DNA of 35,573 bases from Nitrososphaerales archaeon (GTDB taxonomy: Archaea > Thermoproteota > Nitrososphaeria > Nitrososphaerales > UBA213), in the NCBI GenBank assembly GCA_038868975.1, contig JAWCSA010000005.1, forward strand, positions 1 to 35,573, written 5' to 3'. Below the pieces are notes generated by a model, which was given only the letters and a program-made list of their open reading frames with translations, did not search any database and was not told the origin of the DNA. Both the position numbers and the translations under genes were made by a program. Below are positions 18,301 to 32,253 of this stretch, in pieces (within the stretch, counting starts at the first letter, position 1; every line of letters starts with the position of its first letter).

Positions 18301-18681
18301 ATGAGCGAACAAGAATTGCCTCCTTGGTTACGTGAGCAGGTAGCGAGGCTTAACCAACTGCAGCAGAACCTGCAGGCGATACTTATGCAGAAGCAGCAGA
18401 TAGAGATTGAACTCGCAGAAGCGGATAAGGCCCTAGAGGAGTTAAGGAAAATTAATGCAGGCGATGCTGTTTACAAGACAGCAGGACCAGTATTGATCAA
18501 GGCAAATAAAGACGAAGTCATAAAAGAATTGGAGGAGAAGAAGGAACTTGCTAATACACGTGTGATGGTTTTGTCAAAACAGGAAACTAGGTTAAAAGAG
18601 AACCTGAAGGAGGTCCAAGGCAAGATAGATGAAATGATCCGCGGCGCTGGCGCTAGTTCAACAAAGCCGAGAGCGGAGTAA
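18301..18681 (+). CDS. pfdB: Prefoldin beta subunit
   Basis: The 126-residue protein is the beta subunit of prefoldin (GimC), an ATP-independent chaperone that hands unfolded protein to the thermosome. Two long coiled-coil helices flank a short hairpin: LNQLQQNLQAILMQKQQIEI in the first, VLSKQETRLKENLKEVQGKI in the second, and the hairpin VYKTAGPVLIKA between them. This is the normal length. Its last 24 bases overlap the 3' end of the convergent deacetylase gene. Confidence 0.93.
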   Translation: MSEQELPPWLREQVARLNQLQQNLQAILMQKQQIEIELAEADKALEELRKINAGDAVYKTAGPVLIKANKDEVIKELEEKKELANTRVMVLSKQETRLKENLKEVQGKIDEMIRGAGASSTKPRAE

Positions 18682-21576
18682 TTTATCATGTCTATGCATC
18701 GAGCATTTGGAAGGTTTGAAACGCACGAAGATCAAAAATCCAAAAGTTGAAGCTAATGTTAGCAAAGCTAGGTTAAACTCAGGAACTACATGCAGCGACT
18801 CTTCAGAGCGATGATCTACGTATACCACCCATGTTTCCTTATCTTCATCAAGCCAGCTCATAGAAGGCAAAGCCTTTACACCATCGTATACTATGGGCCT
18901 ATCCGGCATTACGCTTGTTGGTATGAAGAGTAAAAGTGGTTCGTAAGACATCTCATTTCTTTCTATGTAGATTTTCTCCAATTGCATTTTGACATTAATG
19001 TCCGCGTTGCTCTTTACAACGATCCTTTCATCATTCCATGAAATATTATACTCATGAAGCACTACCTCCGGAGCATATTCAACTGGGCTAACAGCTGACA
19101 TACCACCCCAATACGCCGCAACAATTCCAGTGCCTTTATCCCTGATCCTCCATTGAATGGCATTTATGTTCGTTATATCAGGAGAACCGGTAACAACAGC
19201 CTCATCAAATGTCAAAGTGATAGGTATCCATATGTTGTTTTTCAACTTTATATCGTTATCAATCTTGAAGGTGTACCAAGATGAAAGAAAATTATCAGAT
19301 GATAGATAGAACCAGAGCTCCTGCAGATAATTTGTGTCAGTTACCTTTACCCACACCTTAATGTATTTGTTCGAAAGGTCAAGTGAAGGATTAATTGACA
19401 TCTTCCTAGTGAAGACAGGAATACCATTTCCATCTGAAACAAGTTGCAGGCTTTGCATGCCTTTTACAAAATCATTATTTTCATCAAGTTGCATTCCAGC
19501 TAGCGATTGTTTTCTAAATCCATGATCACCATTGAATTCTATAATGGGAATCTCTTTACTATATTTGGGAATCCATCCTTGCTTATCAATTTCACTTATT
19601 GTTACCATGGCGAACTCTTTTTTCAATTCACGCAGCAGGTCACGCAGTGCTTCTATCCTTTCCTTTTCGTAAATGTAATTGGAACCGTCTCTATCGTAAT
19701 ATGCTACAGGGTGCATTGATACAACAGCAAAACCATGCAGATCAACGGATTTCCTGATTCTTTCTAGCACCTGTTCATTTGCAAGTACTGTCCATTTGCC
19801 AGTAGGGGTGTCAACGTTGCTAACAAATGCCGTTTGTGGGAAGTGGAATATGGAATCACCATCTTTTAATGGGTATGGAGGTCTGTCAGGCCGTGTGAAA
19901 ACAGAACCACTTATGTGTGTTAGACCATTCTGCTGCATAACTACCAAAGTCTGTTCGTTAAAGGCATTTTCAGGAGGTATGAAGGTTTTAGGCCGCACCC
20001 CAAAGAGCTCTTCTATACGTTCATTGGTCTTCACAATAGAGTCCTGCTGCTCATCAAACGCCATTACAGAATGATCTTTATGATTCCAGCTATGGTTAGC
20101 AACCTCTATACTTCCCTTTGATACAGCATTTTGAAGAAACTCAATGAGATCCCTATCCTCATGTAAGTATCCCCCTATGATGCCAATAGTCAACGGTGCG
20201 TGCTCATCAAGAAACATGTTTATCAAGTCCTTTTGCGCATCCCTAGTAAAGTAATCCTGAACATCATCAAGCCTGAATGCTACACACTTGCAGCTGTAAG
20301 GGATTGATGATGAAACAGGGCTATTTTGTTCACTTTTCGAAACAGTTGTATAACTGGAAATTGATGAAAGATCTGTAACGTCATAAGCATGTAGCCAACC
20401 GACCTGATCTGTAACTACTGAATCATTTATGCTGGTAATGATGAATGCATAGTAGGTTCCTATCTCGTCAGGAATTATTTTCATTTCTACATTCTCTAGG
20501 TTTTGAGCAGGTATTGTTAGTGTTACATTCTGTACAATATCATATGGAAGCATACGATCCTTGTCAAGTATTAATGCAATAGTTACGTTCTTTGCTACGT
20601 GTGCAGGATTATGTATTAGCGCAGAAAATAGTGTTCTATATGTAGAAGACACGTTCGTTAATTGCCAGCTATTTATGAACGGCTCACTTCTTACAAACTT
20701 CATAGATACCTGCTTGGACGCAAGGGTGATATTCTTGCTGCCCCATTCTTCTAAATCATACAATAAGCCTTCTCGTTCCCTAAAAACGCGTACAGCATAT
20801 TCCCCTATAGGTATATTTGTGAAGAAGGCATCACCCTTTCTGTTAACTGCAGATTTAATAACCTTCTTACTATCCACGTTTTGCAACTCCACATTAAACC
20901 TTCCGTCAGACTCGTTTACAGCTTCAGATGATGTCTTGTAAACTGATAACAGGAACTGATCTACCTTTGATGGCCACGGGGTTACTACATTTATCTCCTT
21001 ACGCAATGCAGGCTCGAGCCTTATGAGGGAATGCTCGTAAACGATGTTCTTTCCCATTGAAACACTTGCTCGGTAGTAATCGCTATCAATGATGGTAGAT
21101 TGTAGCCAGAAGCGAAGTGTTTTTCCTTCGCTGTCTGTTGTGGTTTGACGCAGCAAATTTCCATCTCTGGTCTTAATGGAAACCAGCGCTCCCTCTACAG
21201 GAGTAACGCCATCATCATAGAATACATTAAAACGCATGCCACCAGAGAGTGCTATCTTGACATCAATTTTAGACTGCGTGCTTATCAGGTCTATTGAGCC
21301 GGAGCCAGCATACATTCTATTTTTATATACGTCTATCAAATACTTGTGGTTCAAAGGAATAGATGTTAGAACGTATGGATTGCTTGATACCGTATCTATG
21401 TGGGCAATAGGATTATTGTATGAATCCTGATATATCTTAAGAACCATATCCCACGGATCAACCCTGTCGCCGTTAGTATATTCTACTAGAATCTCCAATG
21501 ACCCATTTTGTTCGGAGTAAGAAGCGGCAGGTTGTACTATAATCAAAGCAAGTGTAAATAATATTAGGCACTTCAT
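18658..21576 (-). CDS. Large secreted, membrane-anchored polysaccharide deacetylase (NodB domain)
   Basis: This 972-residue protein has a signal peptide (KCLILFTLALIIVQPAASYS) and, near the end, one membrane span (LALLTLASTFGFLIFVRF), so it is bound to the outer face of the membrane. The N-terminal half holds several beta domains of the carboxypeptidase-regulatory/Ig kind. The central NodB domain covers about 430-660, with the metal-site motifs RLDD (435-438) and HSWNH (495-499), a PPENAF stretch (534-539) and SMHP (620-623). These residues support an active carbohydrate de-N-acetylase. The C-terminal third has a jelly-roll, carbohydrate-binding-like region. ATG 21576 gives the signal peptide. 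It is divergent from the amino-sugar polymer operon, so its likely substrate is that polymer. The substrate is inferred. Confidence 0.85.
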   Translation of the reverse strand: MKCLILFTLALIIVQPAASYSEQNGSLEILVEYTNGDRVDPWDMVLKIYQDSYNNPIAHIDTVSSNPYVLTSIPLNHKYLIDVYKNRMYAGSGSIDLISTQSKIDVKIALSGGMRFNVFYDDGVTPVEGALVSIKTRDGNLLRQTTTDSEGKTLRFWLQSTIIDSDYYRASVSMGKNIVYEHSLIRLEPALRKEINVVTPWPSKVDQFLLSVYKTSSEAVNESDGRFNVELQNVDSKKVIKSAVNRKGDAFFTNIPIGEYAVRVFREREGLLYDLEEWGSKNITLASKQVSMKFVRSEPFINSWQLTNVSSTYRTLFSALIHNPAHVAKNVTIALILDKDRMLPYDIVQNVTLTIPAQNLENVEMKIIPDEIGTYYAFIITSINDSVVTDQVGWLHAYDVTDLSSISSYTTVSKSEQNSPVSSSIPYSCKCVAFRLDDVQDYFTRDAQKDLINMFLDEHAPLTIGIIGGYLHEDRDLIEFLQNAVSKGSIEVANHSWNHKDHSVMAFDEQQDSIVKTNERIEELFGVRPKTFIPPENAFNEQTLVVMQQNGLTHISGSVFTRPDRPPYPLKDGDSIFHFPQTAFVSNVDTPTGKWTVLANEQVLERIRKSVDLHGFAVVSMHPVAYYDRDGSNYIYEKERIEALRDLLRELKKEFAMVTISEIDKQGWIPKYSKEIPIIEFNGDHGFRKQSLAGMQLDENNDFVKGMQSLQLVSDGNGIPVFTRKMSINPSLDLSNKYIKVWVKVTDTNYLQELWFYLSSDNFLSSWYTFKIDNDIKLKNNIWIPITLTFDEAVVTGSPDITNINAIQWRIRDKGTGIVAAYWGGMSAVSPVEYAPEVVLHEYNISWNDERIVVKSNADINVKMQLEKIYIERNEMSYEPLLLFIPTSVMPDRPIVYDGVKALPSMSWLDEDKETWVVYVDHRSEESLHVVPEFNLALLTLASTFGFLIFVRFKPSKCSMHRHDKLLRSRLC

Positions 21577-22040
21577 AAGCAAAGTCAACCCGCTACTGCT
21601 AAAAATTTTTGTAATTCTTTCAAAACCATGACAGATCCGAGAAATGTTCTAACTAAATTTATGGAGCATATGTATCTGCAATCTATTGTATTCATATCAA
21701 TCAAGCATCTTTCTATGACAATGAATGTAAGGAATACTGTGGAGAGCGTGAAACTTCCGTTTCTTCATGTTTTAAGTAATCATCATAAATAAAAGTTTCA
21801 ATTGTCTCCACAGGATTCCTTATGTTGTTACATGCCTATCTATAGCGCGGTAAAAAATGTACGCAAGATCATCGTTGTGCTTTGAGCTAGTAAGAGAAAC
21901 ACTGATTTACAGTCTAGGTAATTTTCCAAAGTTTGAATTTAATGTTTGTAAATTCGAGATGTCTTTGAGACACACACATCGATATCTAGAGTATTTTTCT
22001 TACAGTCTCAAAGGTTGGAGAGATCTTAGGGTGAAATAAC
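21577..22040. other. Intergenic region between divergent glycan genes
   Basis: This 464-bp stretch separates the start of the large deacetylase (minus) from the dehydrogenase that leads the plus-strand operon. It holds the long inverted repeat at 21728-21822. A frame of 60 codons at 21857-22039 has no recognisable protein character. Promoters for both directions must lie here, but no single TATA box is clear enough to call. Confidence 0.5.
21728..21822. repeat. Long imperfect inverted repeat (29-30 bp arms)
   Basis: The left arm 21728-21756 and right arm 21793-21822 are reverse complements apart from one mismatch and a short unpaired bulge. The cores are aaggaatactgtggaga and tctccacaggattcctt, followed by tgaaactt and aagtttca. 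A 36-base A/T-rich loop separates them. It is upstream of both divergent genes, so it is not a terminator for either. It could be a small MITE-like element, the remains of an IS end pair, or a regulatory hairpin. A related half-site occurs at 29893-29911. Confidence 0.75.
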
Positions 22041-22904
22041 ATGGAAGCAAAGAGGGTTCTTGTAATAGGATTGGGGCAGATCGGGTACAGTAACGCTGAA
22101 TACATGTCATCAAAAGGAATAGAGGTAGATGGATATGATATAAGTGAAAAAGCGGTTAAGAGAGCATTAGATAACAATGTAATTAGAAGCAGAGCAAAGA
22201 GTTTCCATGATTATGATTACTATGTTATTTGCATTTCAACACACAAACCTGACAACATGTTCATACCATATCTAGATGGTCTTTACGACATAGCCAGAAG
22301 AATATCGTATGAAGGTAAAACAGGTGCGCTTGTGGGAATTGACAGCACCGTTACGAGAGGTACATGCAATAGAGTGAAGGAAATCCTTAACCACCGGCTC
22401 CATGTTTCTCATGTACCCCATAGGTATTATGTTAATGAGGCTAAAGAGCATGGCGTAAGGCAGACAAGGGTGCTTGCTGGCTGCGAGCCTTGTTGCACAA
22501 GGGAAGCTAGACACTTTTATGGACATATGCTTGATATTCCCTTACACGTTGTAAGCTCAATTGATATTGCAGAACTTTCCAAAGTAGTTGAAAATTCCTA
22601 CAGATTTGTTGAGATTGCCTTCGCAGAAGAGCTGAAAATGATTTGCGATGGCTATGGCATAGATTTTAATGAATTAAGGACAGCTGTGAACACAAAGTGG
22701 AACATCAAGATTCTAGAAGCTAGAGATGGCATAGGAGGACACTGCCTTCCAAAGGATAGTCAGATGTTTCTTAGCCTATCAAGTAATGTATTGGAATCAA
22801 GCATCGTCGAGGCAGCAAAGCTAATCGATTACAAATACAGGGCGCATATTGGGCAGAAGGCTACACAAATAATGTCGTTAAGAAGTGAGGGATCGGAACT
22901 TTGA
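22041..22904 (+). CDS. Nucleotide-sugar (UDP-Glc/UDP-ManNAc type) dehydrogenase, short form
   Basis: The 287-residue protein belongs to the UDP-glucose/GDP-mannose dehydrogenase family, which oxidises NDP-sugars to uronic acids with NAD. It has the Rossmann motif GLGQIG (10-15, usually GxGYVG), DSTVTRGT, the central helix SKVVENSYRFVEIAFAEEL with the catalytic-site Lys (181) and Asn (185), and GIGGHCLPKDS with the catalytic Cys (235). The third domain of the family, about 100 residues that help bind the UDP, is absent; the frame ends soon after the central domain. It is the first gene of the plus-strand run, and its stop overlaps the next start (TTGA). A working enzyme is possible, since the catalytic residues are kept, but the substrate is unknown. 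Confidence 0.8.
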   Translation: MEAKRVLVIGLGQIGYSNAEYMSSKGIEVDGYDISEKAVKRALDNNVIRSRAKSFHDYDYYVICISTHKPDNMFIPYLDGLYDIARRISYEGKTGALVGIDSTVTRGTCNRVKEILNHRLHVSHVPHRYYVNEAKEHGVRQTRVLAGCEPCCTREARHFYGHMLDIPLHVVSSIDIAELSKVVENSYRFVEIAFAEELKMICDGYGIDFNELRTAVNTKWNIKILEARDGIGGHCLPKDSQMFLSLSSNVLESSIVEAAKLIDYKYRAHIGQKATQIMSLRSEGSEL

Positions 22905-23641
22905 AACTACTCCATTTAGCAGCAATCTCCACTGGAATCGTAATTGCATTGGGCATATTGATGGTGGCTCCAGCTTTTACTCAGATGCGACATCAAACTC
23001 CGAAATCAATAGTGATGCTTTCCTTTAGTGTAGTTGATGATACAGATGTTCTAACATGGTGCAACGAGCTATCATCTGTTCTAAATAAGCATAATATCAA
23101 AGCAACTGTATTTGTCACGGGCAAGATAGCGGAACAATACCCTCAATGCGTTACTGATTTTGTAAATAACATCAAGATCGATATTGGCAGTCAGACATAC
23201 AACTATGTAGATCTTACTTCAATTTCTGATTATAGTATACAACTTGAGGAGGTCAGGAATGGTAAGCTAGCAATAGATGAGGCAGGGAGAATCTATTCAC
23301 GAGTTTTCAAAGCACCGTATGGTGCTACTGATGACAATATCTACTCAATTCTAAGCAGGTCTGATATAATTGCCGATTTTTCATATGACAAGCGATACAA
23401 CAAATATTACAATGATCAGTTTATCTGGTTCACAATCGATACATATAGCGGTTCTACGTATTCAGCCAGTTTCTTCCAAACTCTTCCTGTGCTTGATACA
23501 CCAATTATTATCAGTTTCGATAACCTCACATCTTCAAGGGAAATTGATACTTTTATTTCCCAACTAAAATCAAGTAGCGTTCAGTTTGTTAATGCATCAG
23601 AGCTGACCGGTCTGGAACTTACCATTAGGGGGAGTATTTAG
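22901..23641 (+). CDS. NodB-like deacetylase homologue with metal ligands lost (likely pseudo-enzyme)
   Basis: The 246-residue protein has an N-terminal signal or anchor helix (ISTGIVIALGILMVAPAF), then the polysaccharide deacetylase fold: CNELSSVLNKHNIKATVFVTG, the strand IDIGSQTYNYVDLTSIS and FKAPYGATDDNIYS. In active members the second stretch reads GSHTYxHxDL; here both metal-binding histidines are Gln and Tyr. The first motif (TFDDG) is SFSVVDDTDV, so the Asp pair is displaced. The RxPYG motif is partly kept as KAPYG. The fold is clear, but zinc chemistry is unlikely. It may bind polymer or help the synthase. TTG 22901 overlaps the dehydrogenase stop, and the GT2 gene starts two bases after its own stop. 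Confidence 0.78.
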   Translation: MKLLHLAAISTGIVIALGILMVAPAFTQMRHQTPKSIVMLSFSVVDDTDVLTWCNELSSVLNKHNIKATVFVTGKIAEQYPQCVTDFVNNIKIDIGSQTYNYVDLTSISDYSIQLEEVRNGKLAIDEAGRIYSRVFKAPYGATDDNIYSILSRSDIIADFSYDKRYNKYYNDQFIWFTIDTYSGSTYSASFFQTLPVLDTPIIISFDNLTSSREIDTFISQLKSSSVQFVNASELTGLELTIRGSI

Positions 23642-23643
23642 AT

Positions 23644-25047
23644 TTGCCACTAGAACATCCGACCTTAACAACGTCAAATAAAACATTTTCTACACTACGT
23701 TGTGGCCAACAAATCGCAAAAAGTGGTAGGATCAAGGTCAGTAAAAAAGCATGGTCTGTAAGATTTGTAGCATTATTGGGCGCTAGTTTTTTTGTTGCCT
23801 ACAACATATTACTAGGATTAGAAGTGAAGGATCCATTCGTTATATATTCAACATTGCTACCATTACATTCAGTAGCGTACTTGGTTGTAGGTTGGTTATT
23901 TTACAGGAACCCAGCGACCGGAAAGGTAGGAAATGATCTAGTATCAGTTATAATTCCAGTATATAATCAGAAGACAGTTATAGAGGATGTTATCGATGCG
24001 GTTTACAATTCTACTTATAAAAATATTGAAGTTATCGCAGTTAACGATGGAAGCAAGGACGGCACGAGAGAAGTCCTCGATTCAATTGCAAAAAAGCATC
24101 GTGGTCTGAAGGTTATACACAAACATAATGAGGGAAAAAGGAAAGCAGTTGCCACAGGTTTCTATGAATCTAAGGCCAACTTTGTCGTGTTAATTGACTC
24201 GGACAGCATTATAGACAAGCATGCAATTACAGAACTTATGAAAGCGTTTTACGCAGATCCAACTATTGGTGCTACAGTTGCATATGCTAAGGTGGCAAAT
24301 GTGAACAAGAATATTATAACAAAATGTCAGGATGCTTGGTACGACTATTCTTTCAATATCAGGAAAGCAGCAGAAAGCAGTTTCGGGAATGTGTTGTGTT
24401 GTTCTGGGTGTATGGCAGCATACAGACGTGAAGCTATAGCTCACTACATTCCATATTGGATCAGATCTAGGCTGCCAAATAGTGATGATAGAGAACTCAC
24501 AACATCAGTGATACTACCTCCTTTTACCAAGAAACTATTGGAAGCGATGGCAGCGTACGATGATGCTGAAGATCGTGGATTAACAGGACAAGCATTGGTT
24601 GAATGGAAGGCTGTGTATGTTCCCACTGCAGTTGTATATACCGAAGTTCCTTACACAATGAAGATATTTCTAAGACAGCAGAAACGATGGAAAAAAGGTA
24701 CCACACGAGTGAACTTCTTTATGAGTGCGTTCTTCTGGCGTAAACATCCAGTTATGTCACTAATTTTTTACATCGATTTTATGATGACGTTCACCACGCC
24801 ATTTATAGTTGCCATAATATTCGTGTATAACCCTTTCATACTACAGAATGCTTGGTTATCGACTTCATTTATTGCAGGTATGGTGTTTCTAAGTATAGTT
24901 CATGGATTAGACTACAAGTTCCGTGATCCCATATCCACAAATTGGAAGTATAAACCGTTGATGAATCTGATCACGGCTTTCATACTTTCTTGGTTGATAT
25001 TTCCTGCAATCTGGAGTTACAGAAAAAACGAGTGGGGAACAAGGTAA
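23644..25047 (+). CDS. Processive GT2 glycosyltransferase, hyaluronan/chitin/NodC-synthase type
   Basis: The 467-residue membrane protein is a processive beta-glycosyltransferase that polymerises sugar from UDP-donors and moves the chain through the membrane. Two spans (about 42-58 and 68-86) precede the catalytic domain. Key motifs are VNDGSKDGT (133-141), DSDS (185-188), CCSGCMAAYRR (252-262), SDDREL (280-285, the GDDR acceptor motif) and QQKRW (345-349, the QxxRW of processive enzymes). Three or four further spans follow. Between the last two motifs there are roughly 25 more residues than I recall in streptococcal HasA. The start is TTG 23644. The sugars cannot be read from the sequence; the neighbouring GlmS and GNA1-like genes point to GlcNAc in the product. 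Confidence 0.9.
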   Translation: MPLEHPTLTTSNKTFSTLRCGQQIAKSGRIKVSKKAWSVRFVALLGASFFVAYNILLGLEVKDPFVIYSTLLPLHSVAYLVVGWLFYRNPATGKVGNDLVSVIIPVYNQKTVIEDVIDAVYNSTYKNIEVIAVNDGSKDGTREVLDSIAKKHRGLKVIHKHNEGKRKAVATGFYESKANFVVLIDSDSIIDKHAITELMKAFYADPTIGATVAYAKVANVNKNIITKCQDAWYDYSFNIRKAAESSFGNVLCCSGCMAAYRREAIAHYIPYWIRSRLPNSDDRELTTSVILPPFTKKLLEAMAAYDDAEDRGLTGQALVEWKAVYVPTAVVYTEVPYTMKIFLRQQKRWKKGTTRVNFFMSAFFWRKHPVMSLIFYIDFMMTFTTPFIVAIIFVYNPFILQNAWLSTSFIAGMVFLSIVHGLDYKFRDPISTNWKYKPLMNLITAFILSWLIFPAIWSYRKNEWGTR

Positions 25048-25060
25048 GAACGAGGTTATT

Positions 25061-25276
25061 ATGATGCGAAACACTCAACGTTGCAAGAAACACACTGAAC
25101 CGATGCCACTATTCCCATGTAAAATATTTGGAAATGTGACAGTCGGATACTACTGCGTTGCATGCCATGATTTCATTGCTATACCAATAGTACCTGAGGT
25201 AGATGTGTTAAACAAACTGATAGAAACGTGCAGGAACGGCACGTTTGAGAGGAGTGAATTGCAATGTGCTCAATAA
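25061..25276 (+). CDS. Small Cys/His-rich protein of the glycan operon
   Basis: The 71-residue protein is not one I recognise. It has four cysteines and one histidine in its first half, arranged as CKKH (8-11), FPC (21), then CVAC (32-35) in VGYYCVACHDFIAIP. This CxxH...C...CxxC order suggests a zinc-ribbon-like metal site. The second half is a helix, VDVLNKLIETCRNG. It starts 13 bases after the synthase stop and overlaps the glmS start by 13 bases, so it is almost surely translated with them. A regulatory or binding role for the synthase or GlmS is possible but only a guess. Confidence 0.65.
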   Translation: MMRNTQRCKKHTEPMPLFPCKIFGNVTVGYYCVACHDFIAIPIVPEVDVLNKLIETCRNGTFERSELQCAQ

Positions 25277-27018
25277 TAGGATACAAGGGGAAATTGGCTG
25301 CGGCACCCATCTTAGTAGAAAGCCTGCAGCGTATGGAGTACCGGGGCTATGATAGTGTAGGGATGGCAATCATTAATGATCGCAGAATTCTCTTGCGAAA
25401 AGGGGTTGGCAAGGTCTTAGAAGTAAATCGATCTTTGAACTTGGAAGAGATGAGCGGTAATATAGGTATTGGACATACTAGGTGGGCTACACACGGAGCG
25501 GTTACAGATTACAATGCCCACCCGCATTCCTCATGCTCCAATGACATCGTAGTGGTGCACAATGGTATAATAGAAAATTACATGGAACTCAAGGAAGAGC
25601 TAATTCAGAAAGGGCATGTGTTTAAGAGTCAGACTGACAGCGAAGTGATCGCTCACCTTCTTGAAGAATATTATAATCGTAGTGTTAAAAGAGCAATAAT
25701 TCAGACCTGCAAAAGGCTCAAGGGGTCATATGCCTTTGTGGCCGTTTTTACAAATGGAACAATTGCTGGGGCTCGATATGATGAACCGCTAATCGTTGGT
25801 ATAGCGAAAAACGGCTACTTTCTGTCAAGCGATGTTCTTGGCTTCTTGAAATATACTGACAAGGCAATATTTCTGGATAACTGCGATATAGTTCTCTTAA
25901 ATCATGCATTATCGATATTCGATTTCAGTGGCAGAAAGATCACACGTCCAGTTACCCAAGTTGCCTGGGAGCTTGGTGCTGTTGAAAAGGGCAGGTATGC
26001 CCATTATACACTAAAGGAAATAAATGAGCAGAAGTATACGATCGTTAATGCTGCCAATCAGAATGAAACGATGATGCAACTTTTCTGTGATATCATATCA
26101 AAAGCAAGGAGCCTGTACATTACTGGCAGTGGCACAAGTTACAACGCTGCATTAATAGCAAAGCATATCTTCGCAAAATTTGTCAAGATAAGAGCAGAAA
26201 CGATAATGTCAAGCGAGTTTCAATATGCACCAGAGATCTTAGACGAAGATTCTGTATTAATTGCAATTTCGCAGAGTGGTGAGACTGCAGATGTGTTGCA
26301 ATCTGCAAAGACTGCTAAAGCGTTCAAGGCGAGAGTTCTCTCAATAGTGAACATTCCAACATCTTCACTTGCTAGGATCAGCGATGCATTTTTGGGTATA
26401 AACTGCGGTCCTGAAGTGGGAGTTGCGGCAACGAAGAGTTTTACCGGACAGTTGGCAGTGATCTATAATGTAGCTGATAGGCTTTGCGAAGGCTGCATTG
26501 GAATTGCAGATAGAGAGGATATCACAAGAACAGTAAAAGCAGTTCTTGCAGAATCGGAAGTGATAGCAGATATTGCTAATGAGTTTCAAGATGTTAAAGA
26601 CATCTATTTGCTTGGAAGAGCATCTCACTATCCAATAGCTTTGGAAGGTGCATTGAAACTAAAGGAGTTAGCATATGTGCATGCGGAGGGCATAGCAGCA
26701 GGAGAGTTGAAACATGGACCACTTGCATTGATGGACAAGGATACCGAAGTCATAATCTTGAACCCTTCAGATTCAACCTACGATGATACGCTATCAAACG
26801 TCCATGAGATAAAGGCCAGAGGTGCAAAGATCATAGGCATTTCCGACAAGTATGATAGTGTGTATGATCATTTGATCAAAATTCCAAAGGTGAATGAGGC
26901 ACTCTATCCTCTGATCGAGGTTATTCCCTTACAGATGCTTGCATATCATACTGCTTTAATGAGAAATGCTGATCCAGACTATCCCCGTAATTTAGCAAAG
27001 TCGGTTACGGTCAAGTAA
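25264..27018 (+). CDS. glmS: Glutamine-fructose-6-phosphate aminotransferase (isomerising)
   Basis: This 584-residue enzyme makes glucosamine-6-phosphate from fructose-6-phosphate and glutamine, the entry to amino sugars. Cys2 after the start Met is the glutaminase nucleophile (MCSIIGYKG). HTRWATHG (71-78) and HNGIIENY (99-106) belong to the glutaminase domain. Two SIS sugar-isomerase domains follow, with GSGTSYN (288-294) and SQSGETAD (about 335-342). The family end, with HAEGIAAGELKHGPLAL and PRNLAKSVTVK, is intact. It lies in the operon after the GT2 synthase and before the GNA1-like acetyltransferase, so supply of precursor and polymerisation are co-transcribed. Confidence 0.96.
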   Translation: MCSIIGYKGKLAAAPILVESLQRMEYRGYDSVGMAIINDRRILLRKGVGKVLEVNRSLNLEEMSGNIGIGHTRWATHGAVTDYNAHPHSSCSNDIVVVHNGIIENYMELKEELIQKGHVFKSQTDSEVIAHLLEEYYNRSVKRAIIQTCKRLKGSYAFVAVFTNGTIAGARYDEPLIVGIAKNGYFLSSDVLGFLKYTDKAIFLDNCDIVLLNHALSIFDFSGRKITRPVTQVAWELGAVEKGRYAHYTLKEINEQKYTIVNAANQNETMMQLFCDIISKARSLYITGSGTSYNAALIAKHIFAKFVKIRAETIMSSEFQYAPEILDEDSVLIAISQSGETADVLQSAKTAKAFKARVLSIVNIPTSSLARISDAFLGINCGPEVGVAATKSFTGQLAVIYNVADRLCEGCIGIADREDITRTVKAVLAESEVIADIANEFQDVKDIYLLGRASHYPIALEGALKLKELAYVHAEGIAAGELKHGPLALMDKDTEVIILNPSDSTYDDTLSNVHEIKARGAKIIGISDKYDSVYDHLIKIPKVNEALYPLIEVIPLQMLAYHTALMRNADPDYPRNLAKSVTVK

Positions 27019-28023: not shown

Positions 28024-28647
28024 ATGCGACATATGATAATTTTTGGGATAGCAGGATCATTGCTACTGTTGTCACTCTTATCGTTATCGAATCTTCAAGT
28101 AATAGCTACCGAATCTGATAAGAGTAATTCTATAGGTATATGTTGTGCTTGGAACAGTAAGCTTGCAGATGGTGAACTGAGCTTCAAAATAAGTGGCGGT
28201 GATGAAACTGCTCGTAACGCAGTTCGAGATGCGATAAAAGAGTGGGAGATCGTACAGGATCTTACACTTACCGAAATCTCTGGAAAGGAGAAGATTGACA
28301 TAAATGTGCAGTTCAAGAAAGGTGGCGGCATGATAGCTGGACAAGCTCTGCGCAAATTCGATGGCAACAGTTTCATAGATTCCGTACAGATACAGATATC
28401 AGGCAGTGCTTTTGGCACCCCAAGTAATGTCGCAACGGTAAAGCAGATAACAAGACATGAAATGGGCCATGCCTTGGGTATAGGACATGCAAACTTTGAC
28501 GGCGATCTAATGTCAACTACTGTTCAATCAGGAAGCGAGAACGTATCTATATGTGATATCAATGGAGTAAAAGCGGCAAATCATTTGAAGTTTGAAGATA
28601 ACAGTTCTCCGCATCATCCACATACAGATCATGTGCATTGTACATAG
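28024..28647 (+). CDS. Secreted matrixin-type zinc metalloprotease
   Basis: The 207-residue protein has a signal peptide (MIIFGIAGSLLLLSLLSLSN) and the metzincin zinc motif HEMGHALGIGH (145-155), with an Asp-rich stretch and Met163 as the Met-turn (DGDLMS). This is the matrixin/M10 pattern. The N-terminal part, LSFKISGGDETARNAVRDAI, matches the usual strand and helix before the active site. The tail is unusually rich in histidine (HHPHTDHVHC, 197-206), so it may bind extra metal. No propeptide cysteine switch is obvious, but C40-C41 lie near the start of the mature part. A TATA-like tacttattat is about 28 bases before the ATG, which suggests a leaderless transcript. The target is unknown. Confidence 0.82.
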   Translation: MRHMIIFGIAGSLLLLSLLSLSNLQVIATESDKSNSIGICCAWNSKLADGELSFKISGGDETARNAVRDAIKEWEIVQDLTLTEISGKEKIDINVQFKKGGGMIAGQALRKFDGNSFIDSVQIQISGSAFGTPSNVATVKQITRHEMGHALGIGHANFDGDLMSTTVQSGSENVSICDINGVKAANHLKFEDNSSPHHPHTDHVHCT

Positions 28648-29936: not shown

Positions 29937-30419
29937 ATGAACATGCAAAGTATACTGATAACATTGATTGGCGCAATAGTTGCAGCGACCTTAGCAATGG
30001 TACTGGTATGGTATAGCAAGAAGACGATAATGAATGCCATGTCAAAGCGTCATGTGCTACATACGCTAAAAACAAGGAGCATGAATGGTAAACAACTTGT
30101 GGATTCTGCAAAGGAGTGCAGGAGTGACGCTATATCACCCAAATTAATACCCCTTTTGCTAGTAAAACTGCAGGAAGAGGGTTTGATACAGAGAGCTGGA
30201 AGTAATATGTATGCAATAACAACCAAGGGCTTGGAGTCATTAAATAATTTGGAATCGATGAACAAAGAATTTAAGAAGATCCTTAGTATAATGCAAAAAA
30301 CATCTGTGATAGGTAAACTTATGTTAAATGAAGTGCTAGAGAGGATTGCGATGATCTCCAGCATAGATAACATACAGGACTTTCAGCGCAGGAAGGAAGA
30401 AGCAGTAGTTCAACAATAA
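29937..30419 (+). CDS. Membrane-anchored winged-helix protein
   Basis: The 160-residue protein begins with one membrane span (SILITLIGAIVAATLAMVLVWY, about 5-26), with the rest in the cytoplasm. Residues about 40-104 look like a winged helix: HVLHTLKTRSMNGKQLVDSA, then LIPLLLVKLQEEGLIQRAGS and MYAITTKGLESL, with the recognition helix and a wing hairpin. A helical C-terminal part follows. The likely role is a DNA-binding regulator tied to the membrane. I do not know its signal or targets. ATG 29943 is an alternative start. It lies upstream of another membrane-spanning winged-helix protein on the same strand. Confidence 0.65.
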   Translation: MNMQSILITLIGAIVAATLAMVLVWYSKKTIMNAMSKRHVLHTLKTRSMNGKQLVDSAKECRSDAISPKLIPLLLVKLQEEGLIQRAGSNMYAITTKGLESLNNLESMNKEFKKILSIMQKTSVIGKLMLNEVLERIAMISSIDNIQDFQRRKEEAVVQQ

Positions 30420-30587: not shown

Positions 30588-30618
30588 ATGCAGCAACTGC
30601 ATAACAGGAAAGTGAATC

Positions 30619-32253
30619 TTGTTGGGCTTTTCTTTCCTAGTATCGAGTTGTAACGTTGTCCGTCGTAGTTTTCTACTCTCTGCTCTTTTGACCGTTATTG
30701 TTGCATCTCACGCTTTTCAATTTGTTATAGCACAGAGTACTGATAGGGAAAGATGCGAGGCAGAGATCTGCCATGTTGAGATAATAAAGGACGGTTTTAT
30801 TCCGCGCACATTGATAGTGAAACGGGGTGCAACAGTTGTCTGGACAAACTATGATGAAAGCAGGCATACCGTTACCAGTGGTTCGCCAGGAGAGATTACT
30901 ACACCACTTAAATCACTGCTTCTAGACAAGGGAGATATATACCAATTTACATTCGATCCCTCTAGCACCTATCTTGGGAGTTACAAGTATTTTGATCAGG
31001 TAACAAGGATCATGCGTGGAGAAATAATTGTGGAACAGGCAAAAGCTGTGAAAGAGGTGACAATGGTTCAAACAAATGCAATAAAGATAGATTTTAACAA
31101 TGCCAAGTCCGGAGTGAAGGAAATTTCCTTTCAGAATGGCAGCGTTAAGAGCGTTGAAATTGATCCTGACGTTCTTGCCTTAATAGTAACGTTGGAAAAT
31201 GTAGTAACGACAGGTAAACTGCACATTACATTGGATAGAAATTTGATTGATGCTAAAAATGATAACAGAGATACTTCTTTTACGATTCTTGTTGACGATA
31301 AGGAAGCGTTCCATGAAGAAATATCTGCCACACCTAGCGAACGAGCATTATATATCGTTGTACCAAGCAAGGCGACGAAGGTAAAGGTAGGAGGAACGGT
31401 TTCTCTTGTGATGCTTGCAAGTGAAGCTCTAACCAATGCCGAAATTAGCATAACGGAACATAAGAGCAGGGGTGTAGTTGTAACGGATGCCGAAGCCAAA
31501 TTGAATGAAGCCAAAGATGCTTATGATAATAGCATGTATATGGATGCCAAAATCCTTGCAGATGATGCCGAGGCAATCGTTATTAACTTAAGCAACGTTG
31601 CATTAATTGCCAGCAAGTCAATAGATCTTGCTGAAGCGGCTATCAAAGAAGGCAGTGCAAAAGAACTTGATGTTTCCAAAGCAAGGCAGTTCTTGGATCT
31701 AGCTAAGCAGGAATATGTTAATGGCAACTATGAAAAAGTACTAAGCTTGACCCAGCAGGCTAAAACTGCAGCCTCTAATGCTACGGCTATTGTTAAGCGT
31801 GATGTTACGGCACGCGCAGAAACACTTGCGGTAAATAATGCAGATACAAGAACAGAAGCGCTTGATCAAGCATATCTGATGTATGGCGCAGTTGCTGCCT
31901 CACTTGCGGCCGTGGGAGCTGCTGTATATGCACACGTCACAAGGCGTGATGGTGCTGGAACTGCACACATGTCAGCTAACTCCGAAACTAAGAGAGTGAT
32001 AGATCTAAACAAAATACTCGCGGAAAAACCATATCTTCGGGACTATGATGCAGAAGTCGTGAAATACATTGTTGAGAAAGGCGGAGCAGCCTATGAAGCA
32101 GAGATCCGAGAGAAGTTCAATCTTCCCAAATCTACAGCATGGAGGCTTGTTAGGCGTTTGGCGCGAGAGGGACTAGTTGAAGTAAAGAAAACTGGTGGTC
32201 AGAACCTTCTCAGAATAAGAGAAGAGTATACGCAAAAAGGCAATTCCATATAA
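30619..32253 (+). CDS. One-component membrane regulator: cupredoxin-like outside, winged helix inside
   Basis: The 544-residue protein has an N-terminal signal or anchor (SFLLSALLTVIVASHAF). Residues about 51-139 are cupredoxin-like: IIKDGFIPRTLIVKRGATVV and WTNYDESRHTVTSG hold the strand order and one copper-type His (83). The second ligand loop reads YKYFDQVTRIMRG where blue copper proteins have YxYYCxxHxxMxG, so Cys and His are lost. A beta-rich part and a helical, Ala/Glu/Asp-rich stalk (290-400) follow. One membrane span lies at 417-440, then a cytoplasmic winged helix at about 474-533 (AEIREKFNLPKSTAWRLVRR, LAREGLVEVKK). This design fits a sensor that changes DNA binding directly. The start is TTG 30619; TTG 30622 is also possible. 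Confidence 0.82.
   Translation: MLGFSFLVSSCNVVRRSFLLSALLTVIVASHAFQFVIAQSTDRERCEAEICHVEIIKDGFIPRTLIVKRGATVVWTNYDESRHTVTSGSPGEITTPLKSLLLDKGDIYQFTFDPSSTYLGSYKYFDQVTRIMRGEIIVEQAKAVKEVTMVQTNAIKIDFNNAKSGVKEISFQNGSVKSVEIDPDVLALIVTLENVVTTGKLHITLDRNLIDAKNDNRDTSFTILVDDKEAFHEEISATPSERALYIVVPSKATKVKVGGTVSLVMLASEALTNAEISITEHKSRGVVVTDAEAKLNEAKDAYDNSMYMDAKILADDAEAIVINLSNVALIASKSIDLAEAAIKEGSAKELDVSKARQFLDLAKQEYVNGNYEKVLSLTQQAKTAASNATAIVKRDVTARAETLAVNNADTRTEALDQAYLMYGAVAASLAAVGAAVYAHVTRRDGAGTAHMSANSETKRVIDLNKILAEKPYLRDYDAEVVKYIVEKGGAAYEAEIREKFNLPKSTAWRLVRRLAREGLVEVKKTGGQNLLRIREEYTQKGNSI

Follow-up and report, generated by a model that had tools for sequence, protein, structure and literature searches.

A copper-less cupredoxin as the outer domain of a putative single-span membrane regulator in an ammonia-oxidising Nitrososphaerales archaeon

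Results

The gene at 30619–32253 (+ strand) of the window, the whole 35,573-nt stretch analysed here and the entire contig C5 of a 1.82 Mb genome in 133 contigs, encodes a protein of 544 aa in which an outer half carrying a copper-less cupredoxin is joined to the stalk, span and winged helix of a membrane-anchored family. On balance we favour the assignment of this protein as a putative single-span one-component transmembrane regulator, whose copper-independent outer half would act as a receptor and alter transcription. A regulator with an exchanged outer part is argued for by the replacement of a copper-ligand Cys by Asp in 5/5 copper-less proteins, a dN/dS of 0.19 for the cupredoxin domain, the presence of the same architecture in two families and invariant residues of the recognition helix. 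The source genome contains archaeal AmoA and the organism is therefore an ammonia oxidiser.

The reading frame begins with TTG, just downstream of an in-frame stop (TGA at 30613), and the parts of the protein given below lie on the + strand. Residues 1–39 (30619–30735) are a predicted signal peptide, hydrophobic at residues 19–37 and helical at 13–30 in the model. Residues 43–139 (30745–31035) were assigned as a cupredoxin domain by Pfam, a PDB match, structure prediction and fold search. Specifically, Cupredoxin_1 scored barely above its Pfam cut-off (27.1 vs 27.0 bits, residues 33–138), amicyanin (PDB) matched residues 52–139 by sequence at E 0.002, and an NCBIfam search of the protein gave amicyanin and Lrs14/Sta1 matches, all sub-threshold. 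A model of residues 41–262 built from 27 sequences had a pLDDT of 92, and its top solved match was the purple cupredoxin 5fc9 of Nitrosopumilus maritimus (TM 0.84 by target length, 1.6 Å), a fold test that is not independent of sequence homology because the input alignment includes true cupredoxins. Sequence evidence and fold match agreed, so that the cupredoxin-like outer domain (a Greek-key beta sandwich) proposed in the initial annotation holds up in the predicted structure.

The full-length AlphaFold2 model, built from 16 sequences, showed in order a signal-peptide helix, strands at 43–139, strands at 166–259, helices at 263–406, a helix at 408–442 that includes the span, and the winged helix; it had a mean pLDDT of 78 and a low pTM (0.43), and so does not fix the arrangement of the domains relative to one another. 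Residues ~151–260 (31069–31398) thus form a second beta domain, with the consequence that the helical stalk comprises residues 263–406 only (31405–31836), a region that is helical in the model and aligns in relatives. The initial annotation had missed this beta domain, and its long helical stalk is shortened accordingly. The second beta domain is ~100 residues long and recurs in many surface proteins with PEFG/PEFP anchors from these archaea (e.g. L005, L006 and L027), and from the sequences compared here it appears to be known only from such proteins. No solved relative or good Pfam family was found for it by sequence search, nor did the fold search return a match to this domain itself among the matches listed. 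Its identity with the usual outer domain of the winged-helix family described below was considered and rejected, the two profiles being unrelated; for that usual outer domain no solved relative was found either.

The membrane span lies at residues ~418–440 (31870–31938), where a hydrophobic stretch (418–436; Kyte-Doolittle 1.7) inside the single predicted helix 408–442 is followed by Arg-Arg. The signal peptide and the Arg-Arg after the span place the outer half outside and the winged helix inside, a predicted topology in agreement with the single span and inner winged helix first suggested. The winged helix at residues 463–533 (32005–32217; recognition helix at ~504–516) was identified by Pfam, model and alignment, with a pLDDT >90 in the full-length model and narrow passes of the Pfam cut-offs for DUF7343 (27.9 vs 27.6, residues 476–533) and TrmB (26.9 vs 25.6). 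Domain searches of the protein found neither a kinase nor a receiver domain, the input and DNA-binding parts being in one chain.

In an alignment with amicyanin and 17 cupredoxins of relatives, the ligand Cys is replaced by Asp126 and the second ligand His by Thr129 within the loop YFDQVTRIM (residues 124–132; 30988–31014), leaving His83 (30865–30867) and Met132. Both amicyanin and purple cupredoxin 5fc9 share the fold of the window protein but, unlike it, keep the Cys ligand. The copper-less group consists of the window protein, three fusion proteins from other genomes (L067, L068 and L069) and a paralogue in the same genome (C26). Across these five the Cys column is Asp in every case and the second-His column reads T, R, R, S and T, respectively; at the Met132 position L068 has V and L069 has I, and L069 has lost all four copper ligands, including His83 (Leu). 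The other cupredoxins of the comparison set have Cys in 17/17, the second His in 16/17 and Met in 17/17, and Cys and both His are also present in each of the seven other cupredoxins read from the same genome. This difference between Asp in 5/5 and Cys in 17/17 marks the copper loss as a clade trait and not an error. A sequencing or assembly error behind the missing Cys was ruled out, since four other genes carry the same change. The window protein thus lacks the His-Cys-His(-Met) ligand set of blue (type 1) copper cupredoxins, and, judging from the alignment, no metal ligand set is conserved in the copper-less clade. The initial annotation, which had noted the retained His83 and the altered loop and considered a blue copper centre unlikely, was correct on each count; loss of the copper centre from the outer domain is supported, the absence of copper being predicted from the ligand residues. 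Neither the structure prediction nor the ligand alignment, both proposed there as checks, spoke against that annotation.

The residues left at the former site could nevertheless serve a metal or redox sensor, in which His83, Met132 and Asp126 bind copper or another metal weakly, or the pair Cys46-x4-Cys51 (30754–30771) reports the redox state. The window protein retains His83 and Met132, and all five copper-less proteins share Asp126 and the Cys pair, but L069 is without His83 and neither L068 nor L069 has Met132. A structural disulfide would suffice to explain the Cys pair, as N-terminal Cys pairs are also found in many ordinary cupredoxins of the order, and we consider this sensor improbable.

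Evolutionary rates point to continued use of the altered domain. Between L067 and L068 the dN/dS (Nei-Gojobori count) was 0.19 for the cupredoxin, 0.18 for the stalk, 0.31 for the winged helix and 0.83 for the span with the linker, from which it follows that the cupredoxin domain has been kept by selection after copper loss. A copper-less domain persisting as a spacer or decaying remnant with no receptor role would agree with the loss of all four ligands in L069; it is at odds with the low cupredoxin dN/dS and the fixed Asp, and we regard it as very unlikely.

The inner linker, together with the span, is the fastest-evolving and a poorly conserved part of the protein, and residues 439–456 between span and winged helix have a pLDDT <50. 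Such a low-confidence, poorly conserved linker does not favour rigid coupling across the membrane. Its looseness and fast evolution also make a real rival of release by cleavage, whereby an external change would render the protein susceptible to proteolysis within or close to the membrane, and the winged helix, once released, would move to its targets. The gene at 28024–28647 (+), 2 kb upstream, encodes a secreted matrixin-type metalloprotease (Peptidase_M10 at E 5e-12; motif HEMGHALGIGH) that would fit such a scheme, although a protease gene was not seen next to the relatives, and release by cleavage seems to us unlikely, if less so than metal or redox sensing.

The inner half of the protein belongs to a Nitrososphaerales family of membrane-anchored winged-helix proteins, with a match at an E threshold of 1e-8 in 256 of the 400 sampled genomes of the order. 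The usual form of this DUF7343/TrmB/MarR-like family has the winged helix preceded by a signal peptide, an outer domain, a helical stalk and one span, and is represented in the same genome by L002 (contig C74), to which the inner half of the window protein is 57% identical. The winged helix alone shares 72% identity with that of L002 and 32–62% with those of other members. Stalk, signal peptide and a single span before the winged helix are all present in the window protein; the usual-type outer domain is missing, and the cupredoxin and second beta domain stand in its place. Over 20 members, Pro, Trp, Arg and Arg are invariant in and around the recognition helix, which is basic and near-invariant, and from these residues we infer that the winged helix of the window protein binds DNA. 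As a usual form with an unrelated outer domain, one that is not a cupredoxin, is encoded in the same genome, the window protein can be read as a paralogue with an exchanged outer part, found in at least two families. The initial annotation had overlooked both the membership of stalk, span and winged helix in a widespread family and the status of the protein as a paralogue with exchanged domains and with relatives in a second family.

The usual-form gene adjoins that of topoisomerase IB in this genome and in several families (L101 4609–7672; L103; L109; L110), an adjacency that suggests a link to chromosome upkeep. Members of the family might accordingly be tethers that hold the chromosome to the membrane or surface layer and not transcription regulators, a reading in keeping with this gene order in several genomes and with one family member in most genomes of the order. 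A mere anchor would, however, have no need of the changed input that the exchange of the outer domain in some genomes suggests, and a near-invariant recognition helix is more usual for sequence-specific binding; a tether is thus a poor candidate, about on a par with the metal or redox sensor. Both are less likely than the ligand-binding mechanism proposed below.

The full architecture of the window protein occurs in three further genomes (G082, G085 and G166), all from one genus of another family, and a fourth fusion copy (G088) is cut by a contig end. Fusion proteins of the three genomes share with the window protein the order of parts, the Cys-to-Asp loop and Cys-x4-Cys, and are ~35% identical to it overall; genomes with fusion proteins also hold the usual form. 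With an intact ORF and the same Cys-to-Asp change in three other genomes, chance or assembly error as the source of the architecture was excluded. No such fusion was found in genome G055, one scan of the genome_contigs collection returned two ordinary cupredoxins only, and the architecture was not seen outside the order among the matches listed from 250 sampled genomes of the phylum. No neighbour genes were found to be shared between the window and the relatives' loci, so that gene neighbours define no regulon.

The C26 paralogue (L102 12130–12955) shares ~54% identity with the window protein over the outer half and has the loop YKYFDQVTQIM. Its copper-less cupredoxin and second beta domain are followed by a PEFP-type surface anchor, without stalk, span or winged helix. 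Its reading frame is broken in the assembly at a run of eight A, which may be a real frameshift, a slippage site or an assembly slip. A DsbH-like thioredoxin gene follows it. A tree of the outer halves joins C26 to the fusion proteins (93/90) and places it next to the window protein; this tree and the cupredoxins of the same genome bear out the suggestion that the domain was drawn from cupredoxins already present in the lineage. For the inner halves, the tree unites the fusions, L002 and L009 in a starred group, and a single clade of fusions was not rejected (p-AU 0.18). The simplest reading of these trees is that one old fusion preceded the parting of the two families and that exchange between paralogues followed in this genome; the alternative is independent fusions.

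Directly upstream of the gene, at 29937–30419 (+), lies a gene whose 160-aa product has one span and an HTH_45-like winged helix that scored below the cut-off; its relatives occur in 33/61 related genomes, nearly always as one copy, and in two copies in this genome. Further upstream, 18658–27018 contains a polysaccharide deacetylase, pieces of a UDP-sugar dehydrogenase (the ORF at 22041–22904 appears short), a chitin-synthase-like glycosyltransferase and a GlcN-6-P synthase-like gene, and looks like a surface-polysaccharide cluster. With these genes and the protease upstream, a surface polymer or protein is a reasonable guess for the signal, although none of these neighbours recurs at the relatives' loci. 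Just after a TATA-like box, at 30588–30602, the inverted repeat ATGCAGcaaCTGCAT is a weak, possible operator for self-control. Near matches to it in the genome numbered 14 per strand against 2 for a reversed control, and a shuffled region of that size contains such a repeat in 11% of cases, so that it is not distinguishable from chance.

Discussion

In the mechanism that we favour, the outer half would bind a ligand other than copper, a protein or polymer of the surface being most likely, and binding would alter how the stalk helices pack or pair. Since these run almost directly into the membrane helix, they could determine how far apart two winged helices sit on membrane-proximal DNA, and a change in this distance would alter transcription of the gene itself and perhaps of nearby genes. 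Neither electron transfer by the cupredoxin domain nor phosphorylation would be involved. The narrower proposal, that a cupredoxin has become a copper-free extracellular receptor controlling genes via one membrane helix, with the signal read through the Asp site or the Cys pair, is put forward tentatively and with less confidence than the regulator assignment itself. We know of no earlier prokaryotic case of a cupredoxin as such a receptor. No paper on this protein type was found in the openly accessible literature, and, in the main text of the paper on copper limitation in N. viennensis, no named gene could be linked to the fusion relative.

Single-chain membrane regulators are a known kind; a copper-less cupredoxin as the exchanged outer part is new to us. 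In the ToxR/CadC family the DNA-binding part is N-terminal. The window protein would work likewise with the order of parts reversed, its winged helix being C-terminal after a signal peptide, and it is thus not a member of that family, whose regulators combine in a single chain one span, a winged helix inside and a sensor part outside (PMC5430869, PMC7888679). The archaeal membrane-bound one-component regulators ArnR and ArnR1 of Sulfolobus have an N-terminal HTH, HAMP-like and sensing parts and two C-terminal spans (PMC6396743). They are without a cupredoxin, whereas the window protein has a cupredoxin, one span and a C-terminal winged helix, and it does not belong with them either.

With its copper site lost from a relative of electron-transfer proteins, a former electron carrier is probably now the receiving end of a gene switch. 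A copper-protein fold that has lost its copper site and is still under selection would represent a clean case of an electron-transfer fold reused. Little is known of how ammonia-oxidising archaea perceive their environment, and a regulator family with exchangeable outer domains provides concrete candidates.
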